Below, in pieces: positions 22,002-42,039 of a stretch of 64,000 nucleotides of DNA; positions within the stretch are counted from its first letter, which is position 1, and the number at the start of each line of letters is the position of its first letter. This stretch comes from Natrialba asiatica DSM 12278. GTDB lineage: Archaea; Halobacteriota; Halobacteria; Halobacteriales; Natrialbaceae. Location: NCBI RefSeq assembly GCF_000337555.1, contig NZ_AOIO01000003.1:133132-197131 (forward strand). Direction: 5' to 3'. The notes under the pieces are model-generated. The model saw nothing but the letters and a program-made list of their open reading frames with translations. It had not been told where the DNA came from and did not search any database. The translations under genes and the position numbers were made by a program.

Positions 22002-23175
22002 ATGGGAATCCTATTGACTGGAGCGGACGGTTATATCGGATGGCCGACCGCCGTCCGGCTGGCGTCCCGAACGAATGAACGACTCATCCTCGTTGACAAC
22101 TTCGCTCGCCGAGACTGGGTCAAGAGCGTTGGGGCAACGAGCGCGACGCCGGTCGAACCGATGAGCGACCGACTCGCGGCGCTTCGCGACGAACTCGGCC
22201 GCTCGAAACGTCTCGTTCGTCGAAGGGGACCTCACGGAGAGTTCGTTCGTCGATCGACTCATCCGGATCCACGAACCGGAGACGATCGTCCACACTGCGG
22301 CCCAGCCGTCAGCGCCGTACTCGCAGGTGAGTCGCGAACAGGCGAATGATACCCAACACAACAATCTGCAAGCGACGCGGAACCTATTATGGTCGCTCGA
22401 GGAACACGGGCTCCAGGATACGCACTTCATCGAGACGACGACGACCGGGGTGTACGGAGCGCCCGAGTTCCCCATCCCCGAGGGTGGGGCAACGATGGAA
22501 CACGGCGGCGAGCGCGACGAGGTTCCCTTCCCCGCGATGGCAGGGTCGTGGTACCATCTGACGAAGGCTCACGACGCGGCGAACATGCGGTTGGCACACG
22601 AGCAGTTCGACATTCCCGTCTCGGACGTTCGAACCGCGATCACGTACGGCGTCGAAACGACGGAAACGGCCGCCGATCCGCGCTTGGCGACGCGGTTCGA
22701 CTTCGACTACTACTTCGGCGTCGTCGCCCATCGCTTCTGTGCGCAGGCCGTCGCGGGCTATCCGCTAACCGTCTACGGACGCGGCGAACAGCGCAAACCG
22801 TTCATCGCGCTCGAAGACGCCGTCGAGGGGCTCGCTCGGCTCGCACTCGCCGATCCGGCCGAACGGCCCGCCGATCACACGGTCTACAATCAGGTGACGC
22901 GCGCCATTAGCATCGTCGAGATGGCCGAAACGATCGCCGGCGTCGGCGCTGAACTGGGACTAGACATCGCCGTCGAACACGTTGAGAACCCTCGTTCGGA
23001 GGACGAAACGCACAAGATGGAGATCGAAAACGACCGATACGGGGCACTGATCGACGGGCAGTCGACGACGTTCGAAACGGGAGTTCGATCGATACTCGAG
23101 CGGCTGGTGGAGCACGACGAGGTCATCACGGCGAACGAAGATCGGTTCCTCCCGAGCGTCCTGAGCGAGGGCTGA
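22002..23175 (+). pseudogene. UDP-sulfoquinovose synthase-like epimerase (SQD1/Agl3 type) with a frameshift
   Basis: Two frames together encode one SQD1-like enzyme of about 390 residues. The first (from ATG 22002) gives GILLTGADGYIGWPTAVRL, the NAD-binding start, and VDNFARRDWVKSVG. Around 22191-22205 the frame must move by +1 nt; the second frame then reads FVEGDLTESSFVDRLIRIHE, IVHTAAQPSAPYSQVSREQ, NDTQHNN and the catalytic region WYHLTKAHDAANM. QxSAPYS and TQHNN are close to the SQD1 signatures. If intact, it would add sulfite to UDP-glucose-derived intermediates to give UDP-sulfoquinovose, for sulfolipids or sulfated glycans. The break may be real, a programmed shift, or a sequencing error; downstream genes are intact. 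Confidence 0.82.
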
Positions 23176-23178
23176 CTC

Positions 23179-24177
23179 GTGCGGGTACTCGTCACCGGCG
23201 GATGCGGTTACATCGGCAGTGTACTCGTCCGCCGCTTGGTTGAAAACGAGCGGGTCTCAGAAGTCGTCGTCCTCGATTCGTTGAGTGGCGGATCTCCGCG
23301 CGCACTACTCGGTGTCGCCGACGACGTCGAGTTCAAACGCGGAAGCGTTTGCGATGAAGCCGCTGTTGAAAGCGCGATGGAAAACGTGGACCGCGTCATC
23401 CACCTCGCGGCGATTACTGGCGCGGACAGCACGCACGACCGGCGACGGGAGACGCGAGCGGTTAACGTCGGCGGGACCGAGAACGTCGTAAAGGCGGCCG
23501 GTGTCGCCGGCGTCGAAACGGTCGTCTTTGCCTCCTCGTGTAACAGTTACGGACGGACGGAGCGGACGAACATCGACGAGACGGTGACGCCGAATCCGCT
23601 CAATCCGTACGCCGAATCCAAACTCGAAGCCGAGCGCCTCGTGGATGAAGCGGCAGCCGAACACGGCTTTTCCGCGACCTCGCTTCGGATGAGCACGAAC
23701 TACGGGTACGCGCCGGGCGTCCGATTCAACCTCGTCGTCAACCGCTTCGTGTTCCAGGGACTTACCGCGCAACCGTTGACGGTATACGGCGACGGCAAGA
23801 ACTGGCGGCCGTTCATTCACGTCCGCGATGCCGCCCGCTCGTACGAACATGCGGCCATGCATCCCGAACGATGGTCCGAAAGCCGCTACAACGTCGGTAG
23901 TACGCAGCAGAACTACCGCATCAAGGATATCGCCCGTATCATCGACCAGGAACTGGAGGTCGACCTCGAAATTACCTTCCTCGGCGACGAGCAGCCGGGT
24001 CCGTCCTATCACGTCTCGTTCGACCGACTCGATGAAACCGGGTACGAACCGGAGTGGACGCTCCGTGACGGCATCCAAGAGCTTTCGGAACGGTTTCGGA
24101 GCGATCCCAACCCCATCGCATCAACCGTCGTTTCGACGACCGCACCGTCTCAGGTGGTGAGTCACAATGACCCCTGA
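23179..24177 (+). CDS. NAD-dependent epimerase/dehydratase (nucleotide-sugar, extended SDR)
   Basis: A 332-residue extended SDR. The Rossmann motif TGGCGYIG lies at 6-13, the active-site serine in FASSCNSYG near 118-125 and YAESK with Y144 and K148. The body (TNYGYAPGVRFNLVVN, then NWRPFIHVRDAARS) matches GalE/RfbB-type enzymes. It should epimerise or dehydrate a UDP- or dTDP-sugar for glycan assembly. GTG 23179 lies 3 nt after the SQD1-like stop, so the genes are coupled; it overlaps the next gene by 11 nt. The exact sugar is not predictable. Confidence 0.9.
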   Translation: MRVLVTGGCGYIGSVLVRRLVENERVSEVVVLDSLSGGSPRALLGVADDVEFKRGSVCDEAAVESAMENVDRVIHLAAITGADSTHDRRRETRAVNVGGTENVVKAAGVAGVETVVFASSCNSYGRTERTNIDETVTPNPLNPYAESKLEAERLVDEAAAEHGFSATSLRMSTNYGYAPGVRFNLVVNRFVFQGLTAQPLTVYGDGKNWRPFIHVRDAARSYEHAAMHPERWSESRYNVGSTQQNYRIKDIARIIDQELEVDLEITFLGDEQPGPSYHVSFDRLDETGYEPEWTLRDGIQELSERFRSDPNPIASTVVSTTAPSQVVSHNDP

Positions 24178-25309
24178 TACTAGTGATCGCACGCCGACAA
24201 AGACGGAACCGATGACGGAAACGAAAACGGAGACAGAGACGGCCGCTGGGACGGGATCAGGGGCGGGGACAGAGCTAGAGTCGGGACTGGAATCAGAGAG
24301 AAAAACTGGAAGCGAAGCGGCGAGGAATACGAGTTCAGCGCAACCGGTGCGAGTCGCGATCACCGGCGCGGCTGGATACATCGGGAGCCGCATCGTCGCC
24401 CAACTGCAGTCCGAACGTCCCGACTGGGAGCTGACGGCGCTCGACAACTTCTATCGCGGCTCGCTTCGGGAGATCGGCTCCGTGACGGTCGAGCACGTCG
24501 ACGTTCGAAACCGCGACCGATTGTGGGACGCGCTGGAGGGTGCCGACATCGTGATGCACCTCGCCGCGATCAGCGGCATCGAGGACTGCACGGAGCATCC
24601 GGAACTCACCTACGACGTAAACGTAACCGGGACCGGGCACGTCGTTCGATTTTGCAGGCGGACGAACACCGGGTTGATCTTCCCGACGAGTATGGCCGTC
24701 GTCGGCGACCCCCAGGAGTTCCCGATCACGGCCGATCACCCGCGCGATCCCCTGAACTGGTACGGCCGAACGAAAGTCATCGGCGAGCGGCTGATCGATG
24801 AACTCGCGACCGATTCGTTCCCGGCGCACCACCTCCTCAAGTCGAACCTGTACGGTACGCACACCGTCGACGGACGGGTCGTCACGAAGGCGACCGTGCT
24901 CAACTTCTTCGCGGAACGGGCACTCGAAAACGAATCGCTGCCCGTCTACGAACCGGGGACTCAATCGCGCAATTTCGTCCACGTGAAAGATGTCGCTCGC
25001 GCGTACATTCACAGCGCCGATGTACTTCTCGAGGATCTCGCCGAGGGTTCGACCGGGATAGAGACGTTCACGATCGCCAGTGACGAGGATCCGAGCGTGC
25101 TCGATATCGCAGAAACCGTCCGCGAGAATGCGGCGGCGCAAGCGGGGTTCGACGCGTCAATCGAACTCACCGAAAACCCGCGCGGGAACGAAACGCTCGT
25201 CGACGACTTTCCGGTCGAGACGACTCGAGCTCACGAGGTCCTCGGCTGGGATCCGATCGAGACGGTCGACGAAACGATCCGCTCGCTGATCGAAACGAAC
25301 GCCCGCTAA
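24167..25309 (+). CDS. NAD-dependent epimerase/dehydratase with a repetitive N-terminal extension
   Basis: The catalytic part of this 380-residue extended SDR begins at about residue 62 (RVAITGAAGYIGSRI, with the glycine motif at 67-73) and has YGRTK with Y199 and K203. The first 60 residues are a low-complexity Thr/Glu/Gly/Ser tail encoded by purine-rich repeats (24211-24242); a start near the catalytic domain would remove it but no better start codon is evident, and the overlap with the preceding gene supports 24167. The enzyme should modify a nucleotide sugar. It overlaps the following GT2 gene by one nt. Confidence 0.88.
   Translation: MTPDTSDRTPTKTEPMTETKTETETAAGTGSGAGTELESGLESERKTGSEAARNTSSAQPVRVAITGAAGYIGSRIVAQLQSERPDWELTALDNFYRGSLREIGSVTVEHVDVRNRDRLWDALEGADIVMHLAAISGIEDCTEHPELTYDVNVTGTGHVVRFCRRTNTGLIFPTSMAVVGDPQEFPITADHPRDPLNWYGRTKVIGERLIDELATDSFPAHHLLKSNLYGTHTVDGRVVTKATVLNFFAERALENESLPVYEPGTQSRNFVHVKDVARAYIHSADVLLEDLAEGSTGIETFTIASDEDPSVLDIAETVRENAAAQAGFDASIELTENPRGNETLVDDFPVETTRAHEVLGWDPIETVDETIRSLIETNAR
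24211..24242 (+). repeat. Purine-rich imperfect ACGGAA/ACGGAG repeats
   Basis: Successive units of the type ACGGAAACGAAAACGGAGAC encode alternating Thr-Glu. A similar tract with the same protein output (TETETGAETGTE) lies on the minus strand at 28461-28507 in a glycosyltransferase gene. Confidence 0.6.
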
Positions 25310-26349
25310 TGCTTCCAGTTACGATCGACCCGTTGAGCACGCTGCTCGTCGCTCTTGCGATCGGAATCCTCATCTGGGGATTCGAACGATACCGACGCCG
25401 GTTCGAGCGAAGCGACCTTCTGATCGCAGGGATTCTCGCGAGCGGCCTGCTCTCGTTCGTGTTCATGCCGGGCGCGTTCGATTTCGTCGGCGTCGCACTC
25501 GACATCGAGCACCGCTACGTCGTGATCTCGCTGCTCGCAAACATCGTCTTCATCGGATTCCTGTGTTACGTGTTGACGCTCGTCCACGGTGTACACGACG
25601 AGGTGTCCGAGCTGACGCAGGCCCTCACCGTCGAGCGGGCACCGGCGACGGACGGCGGCACGGACGCGGAATGCATCTTCGTCGTTATCCCCGCCTACAA
25701 CGAGGGCGAGACGATCACCGACGTCGTCTCGTCGCTTCCCGAAACGATCCGCGGATACGAGGTCCAACCGCTCGTCGTCTCCGACGGCTCGACCGACGAC
25801 ACCGCTCGAAATGCCCGTGCGTGCGGCGCGATGGTCGTCGAACACCCCATCAATCAGGGCCAAGGAGGAGCCCTCAAAACCGGCTTCGATATCGCGCTCG
25901 AGAACGACGCTACGATCGTCATCACGATGGACGGTGACGGACAGCACCCGGCCGACGAACTCGACCGGCTCGTCGATCCGATCGTCACGAACGAGGCGGA
26001 TTACGTGATGGGATCGCGGTACCTCGGCGTCAACCGGTCCGGGAACGGACTCGTTCGACGCTCGGGGATTCGATTTTTCACGACGGTAATCAACGTGCTG
26101 ACGAACGCGAAGATCACCGACTGTACGAACGGCTACCGCGCGATTCGCGGCTCGATGCTCGAGCACCTCTCGCTCACGGAACGACGATTCAGCGCGCCCG
26201 AACTGATCATCGAAGCCCGAAAGAACGGCCTCCGGCTCGAGGAGATTCCGATCAGGATCGAGGACCGAAAGAAAGGCGACACGAAGAAACCAAAGCTGGG
26301 CTTCGCGGTCGGCCTGACGCGCATCATCGTGATCGCATGGCTGCGATGA
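25309..26349 (+). CDS. DUF2304-GT2 fusion glycosyltransferase
   Basis: The first 110 residues of this 346-residue protein form three hydrophobic helices with the DUF2304 pattern (about 10-24, 36-60 and 72-94), then an acidic linker leads to a GT2 (DPM1-like) domain from about 122: FVVIPAYNEGETI, the DGS at 159-161, and the metal-binding DGD at 208-210 (ITMDGDGQHP). DUF2304 and GT2 are usually encoded by neighbouring genes, so the fusion keeps the enzyme on the membrane beside its lipid acceptor. Such enzymes transfer a sugar to a polyprenol or dolichol phosphate. ATG 25309 overlaps the previous stop (TAATG). Confidence 0.92.
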   Translation: MLPVTIDPLSTLLVALAIGILIWGFERYRRRFERSDLLIAGILASGLLSFVFMPGAFDFVGVALDIEHRYVVISLLANIVFIGFLCYVLTLVHGVHDEVSELTQALTVERAPATDGGTDAECIFVVIPAYNEGETITDVVSSLPETIRGYEVQPLVVSDGSTDDTARNARACGAMVVEHPINQGQGGALKTGFDIALENDATIVITMDGDGQHPADELDRLVDPIVTNEADYVMGSRYLGVNRSGNGLVRRSGIRFFTTVINVLTNAKITDCTNGYRAIRGSMLEHLSLTERRFSAPELIIEARKNGLRLEEIPIRIEDRKKGDTKKPKLGFAVGLTRIIVIAWLR

Positions 26350-26479: not shown

Positions 26480-27136
26480 ATGAGAGCAAACGAAACACGC
26501 AAACGAAACGTATCGAAGACGTTCGAACGCTGCATCGAAGACCACGTCAGGAACGAGTCCGTCCTCGACATCGGCTGCGTCGCACACGATTCCGACAAGC
26601 GACACGACGAGGCGTGGTTGCACGAACTCGTCGTCCGGTCGGCCGACGACGCACTCGGTATCGACATCCTCGACAAGGAACTCGCGGCGCTCGCGGAGGA
26701 CGGTTACGACGTCACCTACGGCGACGCACAGGACCTCGCGCTCGAGGAGACGTTCGACGTGATCGTCATCGGCGAACTGATCGAGCACCTCGTCGACTTC
26801 GACGGACTGCTCCGCTCGATCGACGATCACCTCGCCGACGGCGGCAAGCTCGTCGTCACGACGCCGAACGCGATGGCGGTCCATTGGACCGGCCTTCGGC
26901 TGCTGGACCAGGAGTTCGTCAACACCGATCACACCTGCTGGTTTGACGTCACGACGCTGACCCAGCTGCTCGAGCGATACGGGTTCGAACCGCTCGAGGT
27001 CACGTACGTCGGGGACTGCAGCCCCACGCTCGAGGATCCGCTCCAGATCGGCGGGTGGCTGTGCGAACGCATCCTGCCGGACCGCATCGGTAAGAGCACG
27101 CTCGCCGTCGTCGCCGCCCGCAGCGACGATTCGTAA
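26480..27136 (+). CDS. Class I SAM-dependent methyltransferase
   Basis: A 218-residue methyltransferase. Motif I VLDIGCVAHD is near residue 27, followed by GIDILDKE (motif II), GDAQDLALEETFDVIVIGEL (motifs III-IV) and a TPNAMAVHW segment. It lies 131 nt after the GT2 gene in the same direction and is convergent with a GT4 gene. In such loci methyltransferases modify sugars of the glycan, for example hexuronate residues, though the substrate is not visible here. Confidence 0.88.
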   Translation: MRANETRKRNVSKTFERCIEDHVRNESVLDIGCVAHDSDKRHDEAWLHELVVRSADDALGIDILDKELAALAEDGYDVTYGDAQDLALEETFDVIVIGELIEHLVDFDGLLRSIDDHLADGGKLVVTTPNAMAVHWTGLRLLDQEFVNTDHTCWFDVTTLTQLLERYGFEPLEVTYVGDCSPTLEDPLQIGGWLCERILPDRIGKSTLAVVAARSDDS

Positions 27137-27193: not shown

Positions 27194-28564
27194 CTACGGG
27201 CGGGAGCCGACTGCCGCCGTGATTCGGGCGATCCGAGCGCGAAGCCCGGATTCGGCGGCGCGCTCGCGGTCTCGCGCGATGGCCGAGAAGAGGTCGCCGA
27301 CCCGGTCGCCGAGCTCGTCCCAGCGGTGGTGTCGGTCGACGAACGCGATTCCCCGCTCGCCCATCGCCCGCCGCCGGTCCGGATCGGACGCGAGGTCGCG
27401 AAGCGCCGCCGCGACGGCGTCCGGATCGTTCTCGACGGCGAGTCCGGCGTCGGTCGCCTCGGTGACGGACTCGATCTCCGCGACGGCGCTGGCGACGTAG
27501 GGCGTACCGAGGGCCATCGTCTCGAGGAACTTCGTCGGCCGCGCGTAATCGAGCGCGTGCTCCGTCTGCAGCGGCACCAGACTGATCGCCGACGACGCGA
27601 CCAGCGCCGGAATCTCCTCGCGAGGGATCGGCCCGTTGATCCGGACCCGGTCGTCGATACCGAGCCGCGACGCGAGCGCCTCGAGTTCGTCCCGGCGTTC
27701 ACCGAAGCCGTAGACGACGAGCTCGTGATCGATCTCGGCGCGCCGGAACCCGCGCAGGAACGGCTCGAAGGCCTGTCCCTCTCCGAGCTTGCCCGTGTAG
27801 ATGATCCGCGGCTCCTCGTCGGTCGCGACGGACGGATCGAAGAGGTCATCATCGACGCCGAACGGGACCGTCTCGATTCTGTCTTCGTCGATATCGTACT
27901 CCGCCACGTACTGTGACGCCATCGTCGGCGTGAGGGCGATGAGCCGGTCGCAGCGCTCGATCGCGATCCGCTCCATCCACCGCAGCAGTCGGTAGGCGAG
28001 CGACCGCTCGTCGGTGAACCCGAAATCGACCGCGTTCTCGAGCCAGCGGTCGTAGACGTCGACGACGAGCCCGCGCCCGGTCGCCAGCGCCGCGAGACCG
28101 GGCACGAGCGTCGTGTGCGGCCCGATCTGGACGACGACGCAGTCGTACTTCCGGCCGTGAACGAGCACGTATACGGTCGCGAGCACCGCGAAGATGACGT
28201 GGTTGAGGATCCGCTCGACGTTCGTCCGATCCTCGACGGGCTGGTAGGTGAACAGCCGCGTGACGGGAACATCGCCGACGCGCTCGTTCGACCAGAGGCT
28301 GTACCGCCGGTCGAATTCGCCGACGGGAACCGAGGGCTGGGGGCAGATGACGCGAGACTCGACGCTGTCGGGGACGTTCCGGAGAAGCATCTCCCATCGG
28401 TGCGCGCCGGCCATCGACTCCGGGGGGAACAGTTGCGAGATGACGAGGGCGGACGTCGATTCCGTCTCGGTCCCCGTTTCAGCCCCCGTCTCCGTTTCCG
28501 TTTTCGCGTCGCTCAGTTCGTCGTTCGTTTGAACTCGTCTCGACTGTGCAGTGGCTGTTGACAT
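27194..28564 (-). CDS. GT4-family glycosyltransferase with a TE-rich N-terminal tail
   Basis: A 456-residue glycosyltransferase of the GT-B fold. The start ATG 28564 gives a low-complexity tail (TETETGAETGTETESTS) before the catalytic part, which starts SALVISQLFPPESMAGAHR. The second Rossmann domain has IIYTGKLGEGQAFEPFLRG, VYGFGERRDELEALA and the UDP/GDP-sugar-binding PTKFLETMALGTP. The frame stays open upstream of 28564, but that part has no coding character. It ends just before the convergent methyltransferase gene. It should add a sugar to a lipid-linked glycan. Confidence 0.9.
   Translation of the reverse strand: MSTATAQSRRVQTNDELSDAKTETETGAETGTETESTSALVISQLFPPESMAGAHRWEMLLRNVPDSVESRVICPQPSVPVGEFDRRYSLWSNERVGDVPVTRLFTYQPVEDRTNVERILNHVIFAVLATVYVLVHGRKYDCVVVQIGPHTTLVPGLAALATGRGLVVDVYDRWLENAVDFGFTDERSLAYRLLRWMERIAIERCDRLIALTPTMASQYVAEYDIDEDRIETVPFGVDDDLFDPSVATDEEPRIIYTGKLGEGQAFEPFLRGFRRAEIDHELVVYGFGERRDELEALASRLGIDDRVRINGPIPREEIPALVASSAISLVPLQTEHALDYARPTKFLETMALGTPYVASAVAEIESVTEATDAGLAVENDPDAVAAALRDLASDPDRRRAMGERGIAFVDRHHRWDELGDRVGDLFSAIARDRERAAESGLRARIARITAAVGSRP
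28461..28507 (-). repeat. Pyrimidine/purine-asymmetric repeat coding for Thr-Glu
   Basis: Plus-strand TCCGTCTCGG and CCCCGTCTCC-type units encode the TETETGAETGTE tail of the GT4 gene on the minus strand. It resembles the tract at 24211-24242 in content and direction relative to its gene. Confidence 0.5.
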
Positions 28565-28575
28565 GCGTTGTCGGA

Positions 28576-29862
28576 TCAGGGTTCGATCGGGTTTTCGACG
28601 CCGAACTGGAGGACGTCGACGCCGGTATCGATCAGGCGCGCTCGCTCCGCTTCGAGAGCAGCGACCGTTTTCTCGTGCGGAACCAGTTGGACGACGACGT
28701 CGGGCGATTCGCGTTCGAGAACCGACGGGAGATCGTCGTAGGCGAGTTCGTCGACGTAGCGGTCGTAGTGGCGTACGCGGTAGCCGTCGCCGCGCAAGTC
28801 GGCGACGATCTGCATCGCGGGGCTGTTCCGACGGTCGTCGACGCTCGGCTTGTACGCCGCACCGAACGCGAGGACCGTCGGGTCTGCGTGGGACGCGAGC
28901 GCACGCCGAATCTTTCGGGTCGCAACGGCCGGCATCTTGTCGTTGATTCGTCGCGCGCTCGTGATGAGATTCGTGTGTTCCGGATCGACCTCGTTCAGGA
29001 ACCATGGATCGATCGGCAGGCAGTGACCACCGACGCCGATACCGGGCTGGAGAATGTCGACCCGCGGGTGTCGGTTCGCGAGTTCGATCACGTCGCTCAT
29101 GTCGATGTCGAGTTCTTCGCCGATCAGCGCGAACTCGTTTGCGAGCGCCACGTTGACGTCGCGAAACGTGTTCTCCATGAGCTTACAGAGTTCGGCGGAG
29201 AGCAGATCCGTGTAGTAGATCTCCCCCTCCAGGAAGGGTTCGTAAATCGACGCCGCCCGTCGGCGACTGGTCTCATCGATGCCGCCGATGACGCGATCGT
29301 TTCCGACGAGTTCATCGAACACGTTTCCGGGGAGTATCCGTTCGGGCGAGTGGGTGAGTTGGATGTCCGCACCCGGTTCGAACCCCGCCTCTTTGAGGAA
29401 AGGGACGATCGTTTCCTCGCAGGTCAGCGGCGGGATCGTCGATTCGACGTTGATTAGATCGCCCGGTTCGAGGTACGGCCGGATCGACTCGAGAGCGGCT
29501 TCGAGTGCGGAGAGGTCGGGACTCTTGTTCGGTTCGGTTAGCGGGGTCGGGACCGAGATGACGAACGCGTCGCCGTCGGTCGGTTCGGTTCGCGCTTCGA
29601 GGTTCCGTTCGACGGGACCCGTCGTCAGGAGGTCCTGGAGTTCGTCCTCGTCTAAGTTGAGCGTGCCGTCGTTGATCTCCCGGACGAGATGCTGATCGAT
29701 ATCGACGCCGACGACTCGCTTGCCGTGGTCGGCGAGTAACAACGCGAGCGGTAAGCCGATGAATCCGGTGCCGATGACGACGATGTCTTCGACCGGGTCG
29801 GGCGCTGGATCGTCCGGGCCTTCCGGACCGCTCAGGTCGCTCTCGTTCTCACTCGATGTCAT
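28576..29862 (-). CDS. UDP-sugar dehydrogenase, WecC/UDP-ManNAc dehydrogenase type
   Basis: The 428-residue protein is a UDP-glucose/GDP-mannose dehydrogenase family member: GTGFIGLPLA at 31-40, the helix SAELCKLMENTFRD with K227, and the active-site GVGGHCLPIDP with C281. It oxidises a UDP-HexNAc (probably UDP-ManNAc) twice with NAD+ to the uronic acid. ATG 29862 is chosen because the longer frame overlaps the epimerase gene completely. It overlaps that gene by 14 nt. With WecB two genes upstream, it supports UDP-ManNAcA synthesis for an acidic surface glycan. Confidence 0.9.
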   Translation of the reverse strand: MTSSENESDLSGPEGPDDPAPDPVEDIVVIGTGFIGLPLALLLADHGKRVVGVDIDQHLVREINDGTLNLDEDELQDLLTTGPVERNLEARTEPTDGDAFVISVPTPLTEPNKSPDLSALEAALESIRPYLEPGDLINVESTIPPLTCEETIVPFLKEAGFEPGADIQLTHSPERILPGNVFDELVGNDRVIGGIDETSRRRAASIYEPFLEGEIYYTDLLSAELCKLMENTFRDVNVALANEFALIGEELDIDMSDVIELANRHPRVDILQPGIGVGGHCLPIDPWFLNEVDPEHTNLITSARRINDKMPAVATRKIRRALASHADPTVLAFGAAYKPSVDDRRNSPAMQIVADLRGDGYRVRHYDRYVDELAYDDLPSVLERESPDVVVQLVPHEKTVAALEAERARLIDTGVDVLQFGVENPIEP

Positions 29863-30766
29863 AGTACTCACGCATCCAGTCGATCGTTCGGGGGACGCCC
29901 TCCTCGAGCGAGACGCGCTGTTCGTGGTCCAGATCGCGCACCGACTTCTCGATGCTCGCCTTCTTGTCCAGGGTGTTGTGGGTTTCCGTGCCGCGGTATT
30001 CGACCGCCTCGTCGTCCTTGCCGAGGTAGCCGAGCACCGCGTCCGAGAGTTCTTTGATGTCGTAGTACTCAGTGCCGGCGATGTTGTACACTTCGCCGGG
30101 ATGGAACGAATCGACGACGTTCGCAAGCGTTCGCACGGTGTCGTCGATGTAGGTAAACGACCGGTGGTGATTCTCGTAGACGTGGTACGGAAGGTCGTGT
30201 AACGCACGGTAGCAGAACTTGCAGACGACGCTTCGGTACTCGCTGTAGCGCTCGCCCGGGCCGTACGTGTTGAAAAATCGGACCCGAACCGACTCGGTAC
30301 CGTGTCGATCCGCGGCGTTCAGTATCTGCTGTTCGTTCACCCACTTCGAAATCGCGTAGTCGTTGAGCTGTCGGGGCCCCTCCTCGAGCGGGACCGACTC
30401 CTCCATCACGTCCGGGTAATCGCCGTAGACTTCGCTACTCGAGGAGAACACCAGCCGGAAATCGTGCTCGGCTTGCAGCCGAAGGACGTTCTTCGTTCCG
30501 ATCGCGTTCGAGGTCCACATCGTCTCGTAGAAGTCCTCTCCGTTCTTGCGACCGAACTCGGCGGCCAGGTGATAGACGTAATCGAACTCGCGGTCCTCGA
30601 AGATCCGTTCGAGCTGGCGGTATTCGCTCACGTCACACCGATAGTACCGTTCCCGTTCGCTCCACGGGAGGTCGGCGACCCAAACGTCGTGGCCGCGTCG
30701 TTCGAGTTCAGCTGTGAGCGGTGCGCCGACGGCTCCGAGTCCACCAGTAACGAGCACTGATGCCAT
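29849..30766 (-). CDS. NAD-dependent epimerase/dehydratase
   Basis: A 305-residue extended SDR with GGLGAVG at 8-14, FSSSSEVYG near 107-115 and YAISK with Y137 and K141. It resembles UDP-glucuronate/UDP-glucose 4-epimerase-like enzymes of archaeal glycan loci. ATG 30766 is chosen because it begins directly at the Rossmann motif (MASVLVTGG); the frame extends seven codons upstream. It lies between the WecB and WecC-like genes in the same direction, and overlaps the latter. The product sugar is unknown. Confidence 0.9.
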   Translation of the reverse strand: MASVLVTGGLGAVGAPLTAELERRGHDVWVADLPWSERERYYRCDVSEYRQLERIFEDREFDYVYHLAAEFGRKNGEDFYETMWTSNAIGTKNVLRLQAEHDFRLVFSSSSEVYGDYPDVMEESVPLEEGPRQLNDYAISKWVNEQQILNAADRHGTESVRVRFFNTYGPGERYSEYRSVVCKFCYRALHDLPYHVYENHHRSFTYIDDTVRTLANVVDSFHPGEVYNIAGTEYYDIKELSDAVLGYLGKDDEAVEYRGTETHNTLDKKASIEKSVRDLDHEQRVSLEEGVPRTIDWMREYYDIE

Positions 30767-30833
30767 ACACCGGGCCACGACGAACACCGATAATTAGTTT
30801 GTGCCGGTATCTGGAGCAAACCATCACGAAACG

Positions 30834-31913
30834 CTACAATAAACTGTCAACAATCTGTTCCGCGGCGGTGCCGTCGCCGAACGGATTCGACCACGAACCG
30901 TCGCGGGAGACCATCTCGTCGGCGCCGGCGAGGATCGTCGACGACTCGGTTCCGACGAGGCGGTTCGCACCAACATCGATCGTTTCGGGCCGTTCGGTGG
31001 TGTCGCGGACGGTGAGACACGGCGTCTGCAAGATGCACGTCTCCTCCTGGACGCCGCCCGAATCCGTGATGACGAGCCGCGCGCTGGATTCGAGGACGAG
31101 AAAATCGAGAAACCCCAGGGGATCAACGAGTCGAACGGACGGCGGAATCGAAAGGTCGAACGCTGCGAGGTTCTCTCGTGCGCGCGGGTGGATCGGATAG
31201 AGAACCGTGCGGTCGGTACGGCGCGCGAACTCGCCGACGCCGCCGAGGATACCGGCGAAGCGATCCGGATCGTCGACGTTCTCCTCGCGGTGGGCGGTAA
31301 GCAGATAGAACTCGGCGGGTTCGAGGTCGTACTCCTCGAGAATCGTGCTCTTTCGGGTCGCGAGTTCGAGGTTCTGCGAGACGGCGTCGACGATCGTGTT
31401 TCCGGTGACGGTGATGCGGTCCGCGTCGATCCCTTCCGCTTCGAGCAGGCGCGCGGCTTCGCCGGTCGGTGCGAACAGGGAATCGGCGGCGTGATCGGCC
31501 AGGATTCGATTGATCTCTTCGGGCATCTCCCGGTCGAAGCTCCGCAGTCCCGCTTCGACGTGTCCGAGCGCAGTGTTTCGTTTGCTCGCCGCGATCGCGC
31601 CAGCGAGCGCTGAGTTCGTGTCTCCCTGGACGATCACGTCGGTCGGTTGCTCGTCCGAAAGAACCTCCGCGATGCCGAGAATCATCTCGGCGGTCTGTTC
31701 GCTGTGGGTTCCGGAGCCGACGGCGAGGTTGTGGTCCGGAGCGGGCAGTTCGAGTTGGTCGAAGAAGACCGTATCGAGCGACTCCGAGTAGTGTTGGCCG
31801 GTGTGGACGACGGTGTGTTGAATCTCCCGTCTGTGACACGCTCGAATGAGCGGCGAGAGCTTGATGATCTCCGGCCGAGTTCCGAGGACGAACGCGACGC
31901 GTGGAGCGGGCAT
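30834..31913 (-). CDS. wecB: UDP-N-acetylglucosamine 2-epimerase
   Basis: This 359-residue protein converts UDP-GlcNAc to UDP-ManNAc. It shows the family features GTRPEIIKLSPLIRA near the start, HTGQHYS, the HVEAGLRSFD region with active-site Glu residues, and a conserved HREEN in TAHREENVDDPDR. ATG 31913 begins the conserved part; the upstream in-frame TTG at 31922 is less likely. It is followed by an epimerase and a UDP-ManNAc-dehydrogenase-type gene on the same strand, so the three probably supply UDP-ManNAcA for the surface glycan. Confidence 0.93.
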   Translation of the reverse strand: MPAPRVAFVLGTRPEIIKLSPLIRACHRREIQHTVVHTGQHYSESLDTVFFDQLELPAPDHNLAVGSGTHSEQTAEMILGIAEVLSDEQPTDVIVQGDTNSALAGAIAASKRNTALGHVEAGLRSFDREMPEEINRILADHAADSLFAPTGEAARLLEAEGIDADRITVTGNTIVDAVSQNLELATRKSTILEEYDLEPAEFYLLTAHREENVDDPDRFAGILGGVGEFARRTDRTVLYPIHPRARENLAAFDLSIPPSVRLVDPLGFLDFLVLESSARLVITDSGGVQEETCILQTPCLTVRDTTERPETIDVGANRLVGTESSTILAGADEMVSRDGSWSNPFGDGTAAEQIVDSLL

Positions 31914-31998
31914 TCTTGACAATCCCGTCTACGTACGAGATAAAGAATCCACGCACGTAGGGGCGGCTTTCGCCGCACTTTCGCGTCGCTCGCGGATG

Positions 31999-33183
31999 TT
32001 ATCGAGCGCGTACCGGCTCGGCCGAATGCGGTTCGAGTTCCGACCGCGCCGCCTCGTAGAACTCGCGGTGGCGGTCGACGGACCGCTCGACGGAGAACTG
32101 CGCCTCGGCGCGGGAGCGGGCGGCGGCCCCGCGTCGGCGGCGTTTCGCCGGCGACGCGAGCGCCTCGAGGATCGCTGTCGCGAGCGCGTCGGGGTCCTTC
32201 GGCGGGACGAGCCACCCGTGGGTGCCGTCGTCGAGCTGTTCCGGCACGCCGCCGACCCGGGTCGCGACGATTCCGGTCCGCATCGCCATCGCCTCGAGTA
32301 CCGAGATCGGACAGGCCTCCCGCACCGACGGCAGGACGAACACGTCGAACGCACCGAGCAGTCGCGGAACGTCCGACCGATGGCCGAGGAACCGAACGGT
32401 GTTTTCGAGTCCGAGTTGCGCCCGGAGCGAGCGCAGCCGATCGAAATACGCCTCGCGCGACTCGAGTCGTTTGCCGACGACCGGAACGACGACGGAGCCG
32501 ACTCGGTTGCGAACGCGAGCGATGGCGCGCAGCAGGTACTCGTAGCCCTTCACCGGATTGATGTTGGCGACGGTGCCGACGATCGGCACGTCATCCGCGA
32601 CGCCGAGTTCGTTGCGAACTGACCGGCCAGCGTTCGGTTCCGTTTCGGGATCGAACTCGGCCGTATCGACGGGCGGGTAGACCGTCCGCGTCGAAACCGA
32701 GCCGTCGAAGAAGTGATCCTGTACCGCGTCCGCGGCGAGCGCGAGTTCGTCCGCCGTCGCCCGGGCGAGGCGGGCGACCCCGCGGTTAAGTGGCCACGGG
32801 GTCCCCGTATCGTTGAAGAACCAGGCGAGGGGCGTCCCCGACCGTCGAGCGGCGAGCGCGGCCGGAACGGCGAGCGTCATCCCTGCGTGAACGACGTCGA
32901 TACTGTACCGGTCGATCGCCGACGCCACGCGGCGAACGGCCGGTCCCAATCCGGCGACGAACCGAGCGTTCGCGGCGACGCGTCGCGGGGGCTGTAATCG
33001 AGGCGGGCCGGGTCTGATAACGTCGAATCCCGCGTCAGTCGCCATCGCTTCGAACGCATCATCGCCGTCCGGAAGGTGAAAGACCGTTTCGATCCCGCGG
33101 TCGCGAAGCCCTTCGGCCACGGCCAACGACCGCAACTGCGGGCCGCCGACGCGCGGATCGGCGAGGCTGGTGAGAACACGCAT
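31999..33183 (-). CDS. GT4-family glycosyltransferase
   Basis: The 394-residue GT-B enzyme starts with MRVLTSLADPRVGGPQLRSL, the donor-side loop of GT4 proteins. Domain 2 shows VGTVANINPVKGYEYLLRAI, LGHRSDVPRLLGAFDVFVLP and the EX7E-type signature EACPISVLEAMAMRTGIVA. ATG 33183 is chosen because the upstream extension has no domain. The gene is read with wecB, the epimerase and the WecC-like gene. It should transfer a sugar from a nucleotide or dolichol donor during glycan assembly. It is divergent from the next GT4 gene. Confidence 0.92.
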   Translation of the reverse strand: MRVLTSLADPRVGGPQLRSLAVAEGLRDRGIETVFHLPDGDDAFEAMATDAGFDVIRPGPPRLQPPRRVAANARFVAGLGPAVRRVASAIDRYSIDVVHAGMTLAVPAALAARRSGTPLAWFFNDTGTPWPLNRGVARLARATADELALAADAVQDHFFDGSVSTRTVYPPVDTAEFDPETEPNAGRSVRNELGVADDVPIVGTVANINPVKGYEYLLRAIARVRNRVGSVVVPVVGKRLESREAYFDRLRSLRAQLGLENTVRFLGHRSDVPRLLGAFDVFVLPSVREACPISVLEAMAMRTGIVATRVGGVPEQLDDGTHGWLVPPKDPDALATAILEALASPAKRRRRGAAARSRAEAQFSVERSVDRHREFYEAARSELEPHSAEPVRAR

Positions 33184-33481
33184 TCGGAATCCGTGTTCGT
33201 CACCGAGCGCATAAAGTGTGGTGTCGTTGCGCGACTGAACTCGTCGCTTACACGCAGAGCGGGCGCGTAAAGACGATGCTAAGGAGTGGCTATCCACGAG
33301 GTGGCCGTCTACGCTATGAGTAACTCGTCTGCGGCCGGACTCATACCGTACCGGGAAGAACGTTCGCGGCCGAGCACGTATCCGTCTCTAGCAATTCCGT
33401 GTTCCGAAACCGTTCTACCGGACTGACAGTCACCGACTTGTCATCAAACACTAAGACGTATGCGATGGTACGCGCATTCAG

Positions 33482-34636
33482 ATGCCCTCGCGCTCAATAG
33501 CGCTCGTTCTTCTTGCCTCCGAACTGGACCGAACACACGCCGCCCACGAGGCCGTTCACAACTTCGTGGATATCTACGAACGCGAGGCCGATCGCATTGT
33601 GATCGTCGGGCCCGAAACCATCGATATCGATCGATCGGCCGTCGAGCCGGTTCCGGTCGAGCGCCCGACCTCAAGTGCGGTCCCATCACGCGTTCTCTCC
33701 TACGTTCGCTACCAGCTCCGGATCGCAGCAGCTCTGTGGCGAAGACGACACACAACGGAGACGGTTTTCTTTCACATCGGTGGCAGCATGCTCCTGCTGC
33801 CGCTTCTCGCGAATAAACTCGCCCGGCTCCAGACGCTCGTATTCGTTCTTGGCTCCATCGAAGACGGATTCTACGCACAACACGGAGAGACATTCCTCAC
33901 GAGACAGTTTGGGCGAGCAATCGCGCTCGTCGAGGGCGTTACGTGCACGCTGGCGGACGATGTTCTCTTACTCTCGAAGCGGATGAACACACCCGGTCTG
34001 CCCTGGCCGTTCTCGCCGACGACGCAGGCCGCAAATCTCAACTACATCGACTGTACGGCCTTCGCGAAGCGAACTCCAGTCGAGGAGCGATCGACCGACG
34101 TCGTGTTCGTCGGCCGGTTCGCGGCCGTCAAAGGCGTCGACCGTATCGTGCGCACGCTTCCGGAACTCGTCGAGTCGAACCCAGACATTCGGGTTACGCT
34201 GATCGGAGCGGGATCGCTGTTCCCGGAGGTCGAAGCGGTCGTCGAGCGCCACGACCTCTCGGACAACGTCACGCTCACCGGCTGGGTCGACCACGAGGAG
34301 CTACCGGCCTATCTCGACGACGCGAAAGTTCTGCTACTGCCGTCCGAGTCCGAAGGCGTTCCTAAAGCCCTCCTCGAAGCGATGGCCTGCGGGACCGTTC
34401 CGGTCGCCACGCCCGTCGGTGGCGTCCCCGATATCGTCACCGATGGCAAAGACGGCGTCCTCCTTCGCGAGACGAACTCGGCCGCCATCGATCGCACGAT
34501 TTCGCGCGTTCTCGAGCGCGACGATCTGGGTGATCTCAGCGACACCGCACGCGAAACGATCCGTCGAGAGCACGCTTATCCGGTCGTCAGGGACCGTTAC
34601 CATCGTATCCTGCACGACAGCACACGACAGAGGTAA
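33482..34636 (+). CDS. GT4-family glycosyltransferase
   Basis: This 384-residue protein starts 298 nt from the divergent GT4 gene. Its second domain reads VVFVGRFAAVKGVDRIVR, LTGWVDHEELPAYLDDAKV and LPSESEGVPKALLEAMACGT, the GT4 signature with the usual pair of Glu residues. The first domain has a hydrophobic stretch (SMLLLPLLANKLARL) that may bind the membrane. It is followed by a flippase gene. The sugar and acceptor are unknown. Confidence 0.9.
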   Translation: MPSRSIALVLLASELDRTHAAHEAVHNFVDIYEREADRIVIVGPETIDIDRSAVEPVPVERPTSSAVPSRVLSYVRYQLRIAAALWRRRHTTETVFFHIGGSMLLLPLLANKLARLQTLVFVLGSIEDGFYAQHGETFLTRQFGRAIALVEGVTCTLADDVLLLSKRMNTPGLPWPFSPTTQAANLNYIDCTAFAKRTPVEERSTDVVFVGRFAAVKGVDRIVRTLPELVESNPDIRVTLIGAGSLFPEVEAVVERHDLSDNVTLTGWVDHEELPAYLDDAKVLLLPSESEGVPKALLEAMACGTVPVATPVGGVPDIVTDGKDGVLLRETNSAAIDRTISRVLERDDLGDLSDTARETIRREHAYPVVRDRYHRILHDSTRQR

Positions 34637-34719
34637 GGATATATGATCGATAGGACGACTGACCCGAGGAAGTCGCCGAGTGACCGCCGAGGTCGAAATC
34701 AAGTTAGAGGTCGAATTCG

Positions 34720-36258
34720 ATGAGTCGGCGAATCGTCCGCAGCTTTAGCGCCGTTTTCGGCTCGCAACTCGGCGTGTTGATGCTCACCGTTACCATCACG
34801 CCGCTTCTCACACGACTTCTGGGCAGCGGCGGCTACGGCGATTACTCGTTCATGCTCTCGGCGCTCCAGTGGCTCCTCGTCTTCGTGTACGCCGGCGCGT
34901 TCAACGGAATCCGCAAGTACATCGCCGAAGACCGGGACGAGGACGGATGGACGGACCACGTTTTCGCGTTCTATTTCCGAATGGTCGCCGTCCTCGCCGC
35001 GGGGATGGTCGTCCTCGTCCTGCTCCTCTCTCGCTCTCCGTTCGTCTCGCCGCTCGGATCGGAGTTCACCATCTATTTTCTGCTGCTCGCCTGTATTATC
35101 CCGCTACGGGCCGCGCTCCGGATCGCACGAAGCGGACTCATGGGACTCGAACTCGAGTCCTACTCGGAGCCGTTAAAGATCGTCGACCGGCTATTTTTTG
35201 TAATCGTTATCGCGTTCCTCTCGGTCGTCGGGGGAAGCGTTGCAACCGTCCTGCTCGGTCGACTGCTCGGGACTGCCATCGCCGCCGGAGTCGCGCTCGC
35301 ACTCGTCTCGCGGCGGATCGACCTGTCGAAGATCGGACGCCGAACTCCCGAAACAGTTCCGCGCAAACGCCTCGCAACATACAGCGTCTCCACCATGACG
35401 CTAACGTTCCTCTTGCTTTCGCTCTATCACCTCGATATCATCCTGCTTCGCTTTCTGGCGGGGGATTCCGCAACCGGATTCTACCGCGCCGCCCTCGTCG
35501 TCGCCGAGTTCCTGTGGTTCGTGCCGATCGCGGTTCAGCTTACGCTTTTGCACTCGACCTCGAATCTGTGGATCGAGGAGCGATACGATCGGCTCAGCGA
35601 GATCGGAAGCCGCGCGGTTAGATATACGCTGCTTTGTACCGTGTTGCTCGTACTTGGCGTCGCCGGTCTCGCCGAACCGTTCCTTACGCTGTACTTCGGT
35701 CCCGAGTTCGACGCGGCCGTGATGCCGCTGTTGTTGTTGTTGCCGGGAGCGCTCGGATTCGCGGTCGCTCGCCCGGTACTCGCGATCAATCAGGGGCAGG
35801 ATAACCTCCGGCTGCTGGTCGCCGTCACGGCCGCGGCGGCCGCGATGAACGTCGCGTTGAACGTCGCGCTCATCCCCCGATTCGGAACGAGCGGCGCTGC
35901 GGTCGCGACCAGCGTCTCCTACGGCTCGATGTTCGGTCTTCACGTCTGGACAGCTCGACGGCTCGGGTTCGATCCCCTGATCGACATCCGGATCGGCCGC
36001 ACCGTCGCGACGACGCTGCTCGCGGCCGTCCCGATCATCGGCCTGCCGTACGTGCTCCAATCGGAGCTTCTGTCGCTCGCCGTCGTTCCGCCGATCGGCG
36101 CGCTGGCGTTCGTGTCGGCCGCGCTTGCGACCGGTGCCGTTCGCCGCGGCGAAGTGCAGCAACTCGCCTCACTAAGTCCGCTTCCGGCGGAATCGATCAT
36201 CGCCGTCCTCCCCGAGCGTGTGGCGGAGTCGCTTCGATCGACCGACCGGGACGGCTGA
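34720..36258 (+). CDS. Polysaccharide/oligosaccharide flippase (Wzx/AglR-like)
   Basis: The 512-residue protein has about 14 membrane helices and belongs to the MOP/polysaccharide biosynthesis family. The first helix begins SFSAVFGSQLGVLMLTVTIT and GSGGYGDYSFMLSALQW is typical of the family. A long cytoplasmic loop lies near 200-215 (RRIDLSKIGRRTPETVPRKR). Proteins of this type move lipid-linked oligosaccharides across the membrane, so it is the likely exporter of the glycan made by the surrounding glycosyltransferases. It lies 84 nt after the GT4 gene, in the same direction. Confidence 0.9.
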   Translation: MSRRIVRSFSAVFGSQLGVLMLTVTITPLLTRLLGSGGYGDYSFMLSALQWLLVFVYAGAFNGIRKYIAEDRDEDGWTDHVFAFYFRMVAVLAAGMVVLVLLLSRSPFVSPLGSEFTIYFLLLACIIPLRAALRIARSGLMGLELESYSEPLKIVDRLFFVIVIAFLSVVGGSVATVLLGRLLGTAIAAGVALALVSRRIDLSKIGRRTPETVPRKRLATYSVSTMTLTFLLLSLYHLDIILLRFLAGDSATGFYRAALVVAEFLWFVPIAVQLTLLHSTSNLWIEERYDRLSEIGSRAVRYTLLCTVLLVLGVAGLAEPFLTLYFGPEFDAAVMPLLLLLPGALGFAVARPVLAINQGQDNLRLLVAVTAAAAAMNVALNVALIPRFGTSGAAVATSVSYGSMFGLHVWTARRLGFDPLIDIRIGRTVATTLLAAVPIIGLPYVLQSELLSLAVVPPIGALAFVSAALATGAVRRGEVQQLASLSPLPAESIIAVLPERVAESLRSTDRDG

Positions 36259-38683: not shown

Positions 38684-39793
38684 CTACCCGTCCTCATCCG
38701 CTTCCGTTCCCCCTCCGCCACCTTCCTCGGGTTCCTCCGGAGTCGACACCTCGATCCACCGATGAGTCGAATACTCGGCGTTCTCGAGCGATGGCGACTC
38801 TGGCACGTCTCCATCGAGATAGACGAGCCAGGCGAGACGAACGGTCTCCCCGGACACGGTCGGCTGTACGTCGTGAGTGTGGTTCCACGTCCGACCGTGT
38901 TCGAGTTCCGTTTCGAACCGATTCAGTTCACGCTGTTCGACGACCGAGTCGTTCTCGACGGCCTGTTCGACGACGACCACGGTGTAGCCGACGGTCCGTC
39001 GTTCCCGGTTCTCGACGGTAAATACGAGTTCGCGATTCTCTCCACCATCGAACGACGTCGGGTAGTTACCGGCGACGAGTTCGCCGTCGTTCGTCTCCGT
39101 GAGGATGGAGACTTCCGAGAACTGCTCGCCAGTTTGAGGACCCACGACGGCGTATCCGATGCTGCTTACGGCCAAGAGGAGGACGATCGCGACGGAGATG
39201 TGGATCGCCGCGGCGGGCCGCGATTCCACGGCGGACGCCGGGTCGCGAACGGCGTTGATCCACCGGTCGACGGGGGGCTGAAAACGCTCGGCAGGGGGGA
39301 GTGCATGCCGTCGCTTCGCCCCGATAAGCGTTGCGACGAGCGTAATCGCACTGAGCGCACCGACGAGCGGTCGGGCGGCTACCGTTCCCAAACCGAAGTA
39401 CAAGACCAGGCCGACCAGCGGCACGACCGACACGCTCAGCGCGAGCGAGAGGACGCAACGTTCACCGCCGGTAAGCGAGGTTTCCAGTGGCCGCGAGAAG
39501 AGCGAGTCGTCCGGATGCGGTTCCTCACCGTTATCCCTGGACCCGAATCCGAACCTGGATCCGGATCGCCGAGCGTCGCATCCGCGAGGAAACAACGCCG
39601 ACACCAGCGCGTACCCGGGTACGAACAGCACGAACGCAAGCCCCAGCGGAACTCTGACCGGCGTCTCCTCGAGTATCGGGAGAAACACCGCAAGGGTGGT
39701 CGCAACGACGATCATACAGGTTCCGACCAGATCCGCCGGTAGTTCGCGGATCGGGCGCGGAAGGATTCGCCACAACGTACCGACTCCGCTCAT
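38684..39793 (-). CDS. DUF1616 domain membrane protein
   Basis: This 369-residue protein has four membrane helices near its start (about 17-35, 38-60, 100-120 and 125-145), another helix near 200, and a long extracellular beta-rich domain (for example REVF-type strands around GENRELVFTVENRERRTVGY). It fits the DUF1616 family, found in archaeal surface-glycan and cell-envelope loci. ATG 39793 is chosen because the longer frame adds a non-hydrophobic segment with no domain. The C-terminus ends in a Glu/Gly-rich tail. Function is unknown; it may help to anchor or process surface polymers. Confidence 0.83.
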   Translation of the reverse strand: MSGVGTLWRILPRPIRELPADLVGTCMIVVATTLAVFLPILEETPVRVPLGLAFVLFVPGYALVSALFPRGCDARRSGSRFGFGSRDNGEEPHPDDSLFSRPLETSLTGGERCVLSLALSVSVVPLVGLVLYFGLGTVAARPLVGALSAITLVATLIGAKRRHALPPAERFQPPVDRWINAVRDPASAVESRPAAAIHISVAIVLLLAVSSIGYAVVGPQTGEQFSEVSILTETNDGELVAGNYPTSFDGGENRELVFTVENRERRTVGYTVVVVEQAVENDSVVEQRELNRFETELEHGRTWNHTHDVQPTVSGETVRLAWLVYLDGDVPESPSLENAEYSTHRWIEVSTPEEPEEGGGGGTEADEDG

Positions 39794-39885
39794 TCGTATC
39801 GAGCAACAACCAGCAATGGAGAAAGTTAGCCGGTGCGAACCACTACCGAGCCCCGGTACGAACGATCGTAAGAACCGGATACCGA

Positions 39886-42039
39886 CTACGCGTCCCCGCC
39901 CGTCCGTGTGGATTCGGTAGACGGCGACGATCCCATCTCGCACAATCGTGTCGCCGACTCGAGGACGACCTCCGCCTCCTCGCGAGACACGTCCGCCACG
40001 CCGAACGTCGTCTGTTCGTAGCGTTCGATCACGGTGCGAAGGAGCGCCGAATCGTCCTCGCCATCGACGGACGCCGCGTCTCGCCCGCGTTGCCAGTTCC
40101 GGTAAAACTCCCAGTGGGTCAGCGCTGAACTCGCGGTCTCGCGGCCGGAAAGGGCGTGCCGAACGGCTGCATAACCCATCTCAACGGCCTGTTCGGGCCG
40201 TCCGTCCGCGAGACACTCGCGACCGTGTTCGAGCAGCGAACGGGCAATCTCCACCCGCGAGCGATCGGCGACCGAGGGTGCGGCTCCGTCGTCCGACGTC
40301 GAGCGCTCTCGTGCCGCGGTATCCGCCGGGCCCGCAGGACGGAATCGCCGCCACCAGACGACGGCACAGAGCGTAGCGAGCACCCCGATACCGATGCCGA
40401 TCCGCGCCCACATCGGCAGTCGTCCCCACAGTCTCGCGACGGCCGTCGAGCCCGTCGTCGTTCTCGCGGTCGCGGACGCGACGTTCGATTCCGAGCCGTC
40501 GTATGTCGCAACGACCTCGACGTCCTCGCTTCCCGTCGGGAGCGTCGCCGTGAGCCCGAACGCTCCGTTCTCGTCCGTCGATACGGTCTCGACCGTCGTC
40601 CCGTCCACGTCGACTCGCACCGCCTCACCGGCAACGCCCTCGCCACCTCCCGTCTCCAGCGTTCCGTTGACGTCGACCATCCGTCCGTCGGCAGCCGTTC
40701 GCGTCGCCGTCACCGAAAGCTCACTGTCGGTTTCGCGAACGGTTACTTGATTCGTTACCGGTGTGGCGGCGAGGGCGCGATCCTCGTGTTCGAGGCGAAC
40801 GCCGAACTCGCGCTCGCCGGCGGGAACTCCCGCCGGAACGGTAACATCGACATCGAACGATCCGTTCGTCGTTTCGGTGGTTTCGATCCGCTCGCCACCG
40901 AACGTTACCGCGAGCGACGCGTTGTCTACGGGAACGTCGTCGACGACGAGCGTTCCGGAGACGGCCGCGGTGTCGTTATAGGTGACCGCAGCCGGCGTTT
41001 CGAGATCCGTAACGCTCGGGTCCGTCTGACTGATCGAAACCGGAACGCTCGTCGTGCTGCCGAGGTAGATCGATTCGTTGGCGGGCGCGTATTCGATTTC
41101 GAGTTCCTCGGTCGTCAGCGGTTCCTCGACCGGTCGGTATTCGAACTCGAACGCGCCATCGGCGTCCGTTTCGGTCCGCACGGAGCCGTTTCCGATCTCG
41201 AGTTCGATCGGTCGGTTTCCGACGGGCTCTCCCTCGGCCGTTCGCAACCGCCCCGTACCGGTGAGCGGTTCGAGGAACGAGATTTCCTCGCGGTCGGCGT
41301 CGACCGAGAGTCCGGTTGCGACGAACTGCTCTCCCCGAATCGTCTCCTGGGACGATCGAATGTCCTCGGTAACCGTCTCTATCGAGCGCTCTGACTCCGA
41401 GAGGTTCGCGTCGGTCGACTCCTCGAGTTCGTCGTACTGATCACGCAACTGCGTCCCCGTCTCGGTCGCAGTAGTCGCGACGCTGTCGAGTTCACGTGCG
41501 AGTTCGCGAGCGCGAGCCTCGTCACCGGCGTCTCGTGCTCGCTCGTACTCGTCTCTGAGTTCCTGATACCGTTGTGCCGCATCGGTTATCTGACTCTGGT
41601 CTTCGCGTATGGCCTCGAACAGTTCGGCGTGATCCTCGCCTTCCGTTTGGCCGGCAACGTCGAGGTACTGATCGAGGTACGCATCGTATTCGTCCCCGAC
41701 GTACCGACCGGCACGGTCGTAGTTTCCGTCCTCGAGTTGGACGGCGCTCTCGTCGATGTTTTCGACCATTCGGTCCATCAGCCACGTTTCGAGTTGCGCC
41801 GGATTTCCGGACTCCCTGTACTCGTTGGGATTTTCATGGCGGACCGTGTCGTTATCCGCACTGTCGGCTTCGTTCTGTGCAAACTGTGCCTGCGGGGTGG
41901 ATCCCATCAAGCCCGTCTGTGTGTCTGCGTGAGCGGCGATCGTTGCTCCAGCAAGGCCGGTAGAACCGATTGTGAACGCGATCACGAGAAAGCCACAGAG
42001 GAGAGTGCGTGTATCGAGACGACTCACGCCCGTGCCCAC
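39886..42039 (-). CDS. Large secreted/membrane protein with Ig-like domains and a DUF4129 tail
   Basis: A 717-residue protein with a signal helix (about 10-32, LLCGFLVIAFTIGSTGLAGA), then a long acidic coiled-coil-rich region to about residue 230, carboxypeptidase-regulatory-like and Ig-like beta domains (GTGRLRTAEGEPVGNRPIEL; NGTLETGGGEGVAGEAVRVD), a transmembrane helix near 560-580 (MWARIGIGIGVLATLCAVVW) and a C-terminal DUF4129 domain (QAVEMGYAAVRHALSG; LTHWEFYRNWQRG). DUF4129 proteins are often linked to MoxR/DUF58 systems, and such a system lies 18 kb upstream. It may be the envelope-spanning part of that system. Confidence 0.85.
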   Translation of the reverse strand: MGTGVSRLDTRTLLCGFLVIAFTIGSTGLAGATIAAHADTQTGLMGSTPQAQFAQNEADSADNDTVRHENPNEYRESGNPAQLETWLMDRMVENIDESAVQLEDGNYDRAGRYVGDEYDAYLDQYLDVAGQTEGEDHAELFEAIREDQSQITDAAQRYQELRDEYERARDAGDEARARELARELDSVATTATETGTQLRDQYDELEESTDANLSESERSIETVTEDIRSSQETIRGEQFVATGLSVDADREEISFLEPLTGTGRLRTAEGEPVGNRPIELEIGNGSVRTETDADGAFEFEYRPVEEPLTTEELEIEYAPANESIYLGSTTSVPVSISQTDPSVTDLETPAAVTYNDTAAVSGTLVVDDVPVDNASLAVTFGGERIETTETTNGSFDVDVTVPAGVPAGEREFGVRLEHEDRALAATPVTNQVTVRETDSELSVTATRTAADGRMVDVNGTLETGGGEGVAGEAVRVDVDGTTVETVSTDENGAFGLTATLPTGSEDVEVVATYDGSESNVASATARTTTGSTAVARLWGRLPMWARIGIGIGVLATLCAVVWWRRFRPAGPADTAARERSTSDDGAAPSVADRSRVEIARSLLEHGRECLADGRPEQAVEMGYAAVRHALSGRETASSALTHWEFYRNWQRGRDAASVDGEDDSALLRTVIERYEQTTFGVADVSREEAEVVLESATRLCEMGSSPSTESTRTGGDA

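Follow-up and report, generated by a model that had tools for sequence, protein, structure and literature searches.

A one-base break in an SQD1-like gene of Natrialba asiatica, and the absence of Agl3-essential residues from its haloarchaeal homologues

Agl3 of Sulfolobus acidocaldarius is a proven archaeal UDP-sulfoquinovose synthase, which makes the sugar for glycoprotein N-glycans and belongs to the same SDR superfamily as the haloarchaeal proteins discussed here. Its Arg101 and Met145 are essential, the alanine mutants being inactive, and replacement of Glu147 by alanine leaves 12% of the activity (PMC4388408). The mutagenic primers locate these residues in the motifs EQRSAP and GTMGEY (PMC4388408). 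According to a review, the fingerprint of UDP-sulfoquinovose synthases is [ST]MG...YxxxK (PMC8987622). In haloarchaea, the Haloquadratum walsbyi genome paper describes an operon made up of sqdB and two galE homologues (PMC1544339). Zolghadr et al. 2015 placed the halophile sequences in a separate, distant cluster (cluster IV) and did not assay them (PMC4388408), and we found no publication in which a haloarchaeal SqdB member was assayed. The S-layer of Haloferax volcanii is reported to carry a methyl-sulfoquinovose glycan (PMC8241124).

The window analysed here, a stretch of 64,000 nucleotides from Natrialba asiatica DSM 12278, carries an SQD1-like gene of this family on the plus strand. The gene starts at ATG 22002 and reaches its final stop at 23173-23175, with a protein of ~389 aa split over two frames. 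The 5' fragment (22002..22349) translates from its ATG as MGILLTGADGYIGW...RDELG and then runs off frame to a stop at 22347-22349. Its in-frame translation is MGILLTGADGYIGWPTAVRLASRTNERLILVDNFARRDWVKSVGATSATPVEPMSDRLAALRDELG; the fragment consists of 66 native residues, including the NAD-binding GADGYIGW, and ~49 out-of-frame residues. The 3' part (22201..23175) continues in the next frame, from ARNVSFVEGDL... (ARNVSFVEGDLTESSFVDRLIRIHEPETIVHTAAQPSAPYS...) to the stop at 23173-23175, and contains the catalytic T, YxxxK and the substrate domain, but not the Rossmann N-terminus. Each piece alone matches the NCBIfam model NF041015 (UDP-sulfoquinovose synthase), the 5' piece over positions 1-62 of the model (E 2e-15) and the 3' piece over 108-379 (E 2e-65).

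The closest intact gene, from N. aegyptia DSM 13077 (L031 = G005:C63; 392 aa as fetched, in a single continuous frame), served as the reference. Protein identity to it is 97-98% on both sides of the break, a match of both pieces that, judged by the alignment, far exceeds chance. In a DNA alignment over 13 kb, the CC at 22199-22200 holds one surplus C, and the rest of the gene is free of net frame-breaking indels, as are the neighbouring DUF4350, MoxR, DUF58 and epimerase genes. As it stands in the sequence record, the one-base break is confirmed. The surplus base falls inside the range, near 22191-22205, in which the preliminary description had placed a frameshift in an SQD1-type gene, and comparison with relatives bears this out: the N. 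aegyptia copy has a continuous frame, and all 80 haloarchaeal homologues compared read through the position without interruption. The same description had called the rest of the locus intact, and the cassette epimerases and surrounding glycan genes are indeed unbroken.

The nature of the site bears on how the break could have arisen. In bacteria, phase variation often targets surface-glycan genes, and it had been suggested for this gene as well; slippage would change the number of C residues and thereby switch the glycan. However, no homopolymer or short tandem repeat was found at 22150-22260, and with a tract of merely CC, slippage would have no substrate. As the shifted state also occurs in none of the 80 homologues, we rule phase variation out as very improbable. 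Programmed +1 frameshifting, which would yield the full-length protein, could draw on the persistence of conservation in the C-terminal frame, but the shift point has no stop codon and its codon context, GGC CGC, is not known to be a +1 shift site. Moreover, since all 80 homologues are uninterrupted, there is no conserved programmed shift site. Lacking both signal and conservation, this mechanism has next to no credibility.

The break could also be ancient, with the fragments kept as separate functional proteins, as a C-terminal ORF of 282 aa could begin at GTG 22327 within the 3' part. This ORF is devoid of the Rossmann NAD-binding half, and should be inactive for that reason. The out-of-frame tail of the N-terminal part matches nothing by homology, and the protein has diverged by just ~2% from the intact copy, so that an ancient origin is extremely unlikely. 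A spare copy that masks the loss was considered separately and rejected, because no second copy was found in the N. asiatica genome, which is 99.8% complete.

Nei-Gojobori comparisons gave dN/dS values of 0.031 (5' piece) and 0.066 (3' piece), compared to 0.146 for the downstream epimerase. As both halves are thus constrained, the break should be either very recent or a base-calling or assembly error; the SQD1-like gene appears to have remained constrained up to the very recent past, or to be so still. For the nine amino-acid differences, the direction of change was judged from 79 other haloarchaeal proteins, and a clear sign of relaxed selection was not seen. D27N is the only difference that puts a rare residue on the N. 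asiatica side at a near-invariant position.

We give slightly better than even chances to a recent one-base insertion that inactivated the SQD1-like gene, as a case of ordinary gene decay. One C would have been inserted recently in the CC at 22199-22200, inactivating the first gene of a cassette that probably makes a nucleotide sugar for a haloarchaeal surface glycan. The 5' product would end after 115 aa and be inactive, and the same would be true for any 3' product begun at GTG 22327 without the NAD-binding half, whereas the next gene of the cassette, epi1, could still be produced from its own GTG 23179. If neither fragment is active, the strain would be without whichever UDP-sugar the SQD1-like enzyme makes.

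Ordinary decay would be in keeping with the distribution of the gene, which is carried by just two of the seven genomes of the genus. In congener G004 (G004:C9 near 108170), the sequence passes directly from the equivalent of 16882, midway through the DUF4350 gene, to that of 38711, so that ~21.8 kb are absent. The junction, with DUF4350 cut mid-gene, is a deletion scar. The locus has thus been deleted in one congener and is dispensable within the genus. A second stretch, 39447-41383, is also absent from G004. What speaks against decay is that neither piece appears to carry any mark of relaxed constraint, which would fit a base-calling or assembly error equally well.

According to this alternative, the surplus C arose by mistake in the sequencing or assembly of the draft genome (49 contigs), and the gene is whole in the organism. 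Both halves evolve as a single constrained protein, the 80 homologues compared are unbroken without exception, and the contig holds at least one other frameshift that is clearly artefactual. The base rate of frameshifts was estimated from ~280 kb of the N. asiatica genome aligned to two congeners, and thus applies to sampled stretches only. Of ~215 conserved ORFs in the relatives, those cleanly broken in N. asiatica were the SQD1-like gene, one near 59634 of G000:C3, and a further, weak candidate. In the opposite direction (185 ORFs), a similar handful was obtained. In the sampled stretches, such breaks affect ~1% of conserved ORFs in N. asiatica and its relatives alike, as expected from normal pseudogene turnover. 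The break near 59634 (L113:19631-19636) lies on the same contig as the SQD1-like gene; with its N and its duplicated GATC, it is clearly an artefact of the assembly. The site in the SQD1-like gene is different, being CC versus C, with no long homopolymer and no N or other ambiguous base, and the rarity of clean frameshifts in the sampled assembly also argues against an error. The possibility of a sequencing error had been raised before, and the low dN/dS and the artefact elsewhere on the contig agree with it; we take it as a serious contender, with chances a little short of even.

The intact homologue belongs to the SQD1-type SDR fold family, both by sequence and by its modelled structure. In a phmmer search, its best PDB sequence match is SQD1 (E 4e-75), and the next match other than SQD1 has an E value of 4.5e-6. 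The predicted model (pLDDT 86.5, pTM 0.90) superimposes on Arabidopsis SQD1 (PDB 1QRR, 1I24) with a TM score of 0.90 at 34% identity, compared to ~0.64 for the next best, GalE. As in SQD1, the catalytic triad Thr / Tyr-xxx-Lys (T145, Y182, K186 equivalents) is kept, and it is invariant in the 80 haloarchaeal proteins. The intact homologue scores 341 bits against the curated cut-off of 575 bits for NF041015, a threshold that is also missed by proteins with both the Arg and the Met discussed below (507 bits for the archaeal protein L186 and 332 bits for the Sinorhizobium pSymB protein).

Despite the shared fold, the haloarchaeal clade has none of the three residues that Agl3 needs. At the positions of Arg101, Met145 and Glu147, all 80 proteins have Pro, Thr, and Val, Ile or Leu, respectively; in N. 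aegyptia numbering, the Pro and Thr are P104 and T150. They differ from Arabidopsis SQD1 in the same way, with Pro for the Arg of EQRSAPYS, Thr for the Met of GTMGEYG, and Val, Ile or Leu for the Glu of the latter motif. The [ST]MG fingerprint is consequently replaced by TTG throughout. The Glu147 position is the weaker evidence, because the Sinorhizobium and Palleronia homologues likewise have Val. At the Arg101 position, the Arg is kept in SQD1, L186, L190, L191 and L192, but not in the divergent L187, and the residue is Pro in all seven related archaeal proteins of families f21 and f41. Arg and Met are both kept in SQD1, in the archaeal relative L186 and in alphaproteobacterial plasmid homologues, and a Pseudonocardia homologue has kept the Arg and has Leu for Met. 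In a phylogenetic tree, the Pro/Thr type is split from the Arg/Met type with support of 100/100, although the branches are long and the placement of the divergent L187 is unsure.

The same Pro/Thr replacements are seen in non-haloarchaeal archaea of the same phylum (L179-L185, mostly of family f21), and the motif change may thus be older than the haloarchaea, or may have spread beyond them. The presence of a genuine Arg/Met enzyme of the SQD1 type elsewhere in haloarchaea was also considered. With L186 as the query, matches were obtained in 70 of 194 haloarchaeal genomes, and no protein in the 194 exceeded 41% identity. Ten of these loci were fetched, and all ten have the Pro/Thr motif; such an enzyme is thus unlikely in the genomes searched.

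In view of these replacements, the term 'UDP-sulfoquinovose synthase' is, for the haloarchaeal proteins, best regarded as a homology label, and it appears doubtful that haloarchaeal 'SqdB' synthesizes sulfoquinovose. The preliminary description had considered that sulfoquinovose is lost from the glycan. This does not follow from the frameshift, since the label rests on homology, and neither Arg101 nor Met145, on which the activity of Agl3 depends, is present in any of the 80 homologues. Tentatively, and as a possibility that we rate somewhat less likely than not, the 'SqdB' clade of haloarchaea and related archaea may be a distinct UDP-sugar enzyme with the SQD1 fold. It would make a different nucleotide sugar together with the two epimerases, sulfite addition or 5,6-dehydration having been lost with Arg101, Met145 and Glu147. 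In that case, misannotation would be a concern in roughly one haloarchaeal genome in three, and the origin of the methyl-sulfoquinovose of Haloferax volcanii would be in question as well.

A broken sugar-nucleotide gene in a single draft genome is ordinary. The more useful point is the invariant absence of the Agl3-essential residues throughout the haloarchaeal clade. Since amino acids on which Agl3 depends are missing from the clade, gene-based claims of haloarchaeal sulfoquinovose, in lipids or glycans, need a biochemical test. If the break is real, the intact gene of N. aegyptia and the broken gene of N. asiatica provide a natural comparison for the function of the enzyme.

The SQD1-like gene opens a three-gene cassette, which has the same order as the operon of H. 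walsbyi. In the 80 haloarchaeal loci, including that of H. walsbyi J07HQW1 (L098), epi1 is found alongside in 78 and epi2 in 74; the N. asiatica copy is frameshifted, and none of these 80 is. Both epimerase genes are intact on the plus strand. The first NAD-dependent epimerase/dehydratase, epi1 (23179..24177), encodes 332 aa, and the second NAD-dependent epimerase, epi2 (24167..25309), 380 aa. They are followed on the same strand by a DUF2304 and family 2 glycosyltransferase region (25309..26349), similar to AglJ/dolichyl-phosphate hexose transferases, and by a SAM-dependent methyltransferase (26480..27136), which is missing from the N. aegyptia locus and found in Natrinema at the same place. 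Within 27197..36258, the minus strand encodes two family 4 glycosyltransferases, a UDP-sugar dehydrogenase, an epimerase and a UDP-GlcNAc 2-epimerase, and the plus strand a glycosyltransferase and a flippase. Judged by this gene content, the locus is a surface-glycan locus. The same gene order, with DUF4350/MoxR/DUF58 upstream, is present on plasmid pNVE414 of Natrinema versiforme and in other Natrinema. A sigma-70 promoter scan of the region carries no weight for an archaeon. Compared to N. aegyptia, epi2 contains a 123-bp insertion (24194-24316), which gives the protein an extended, Thr/Glu-rich N-terminus of low complexity.
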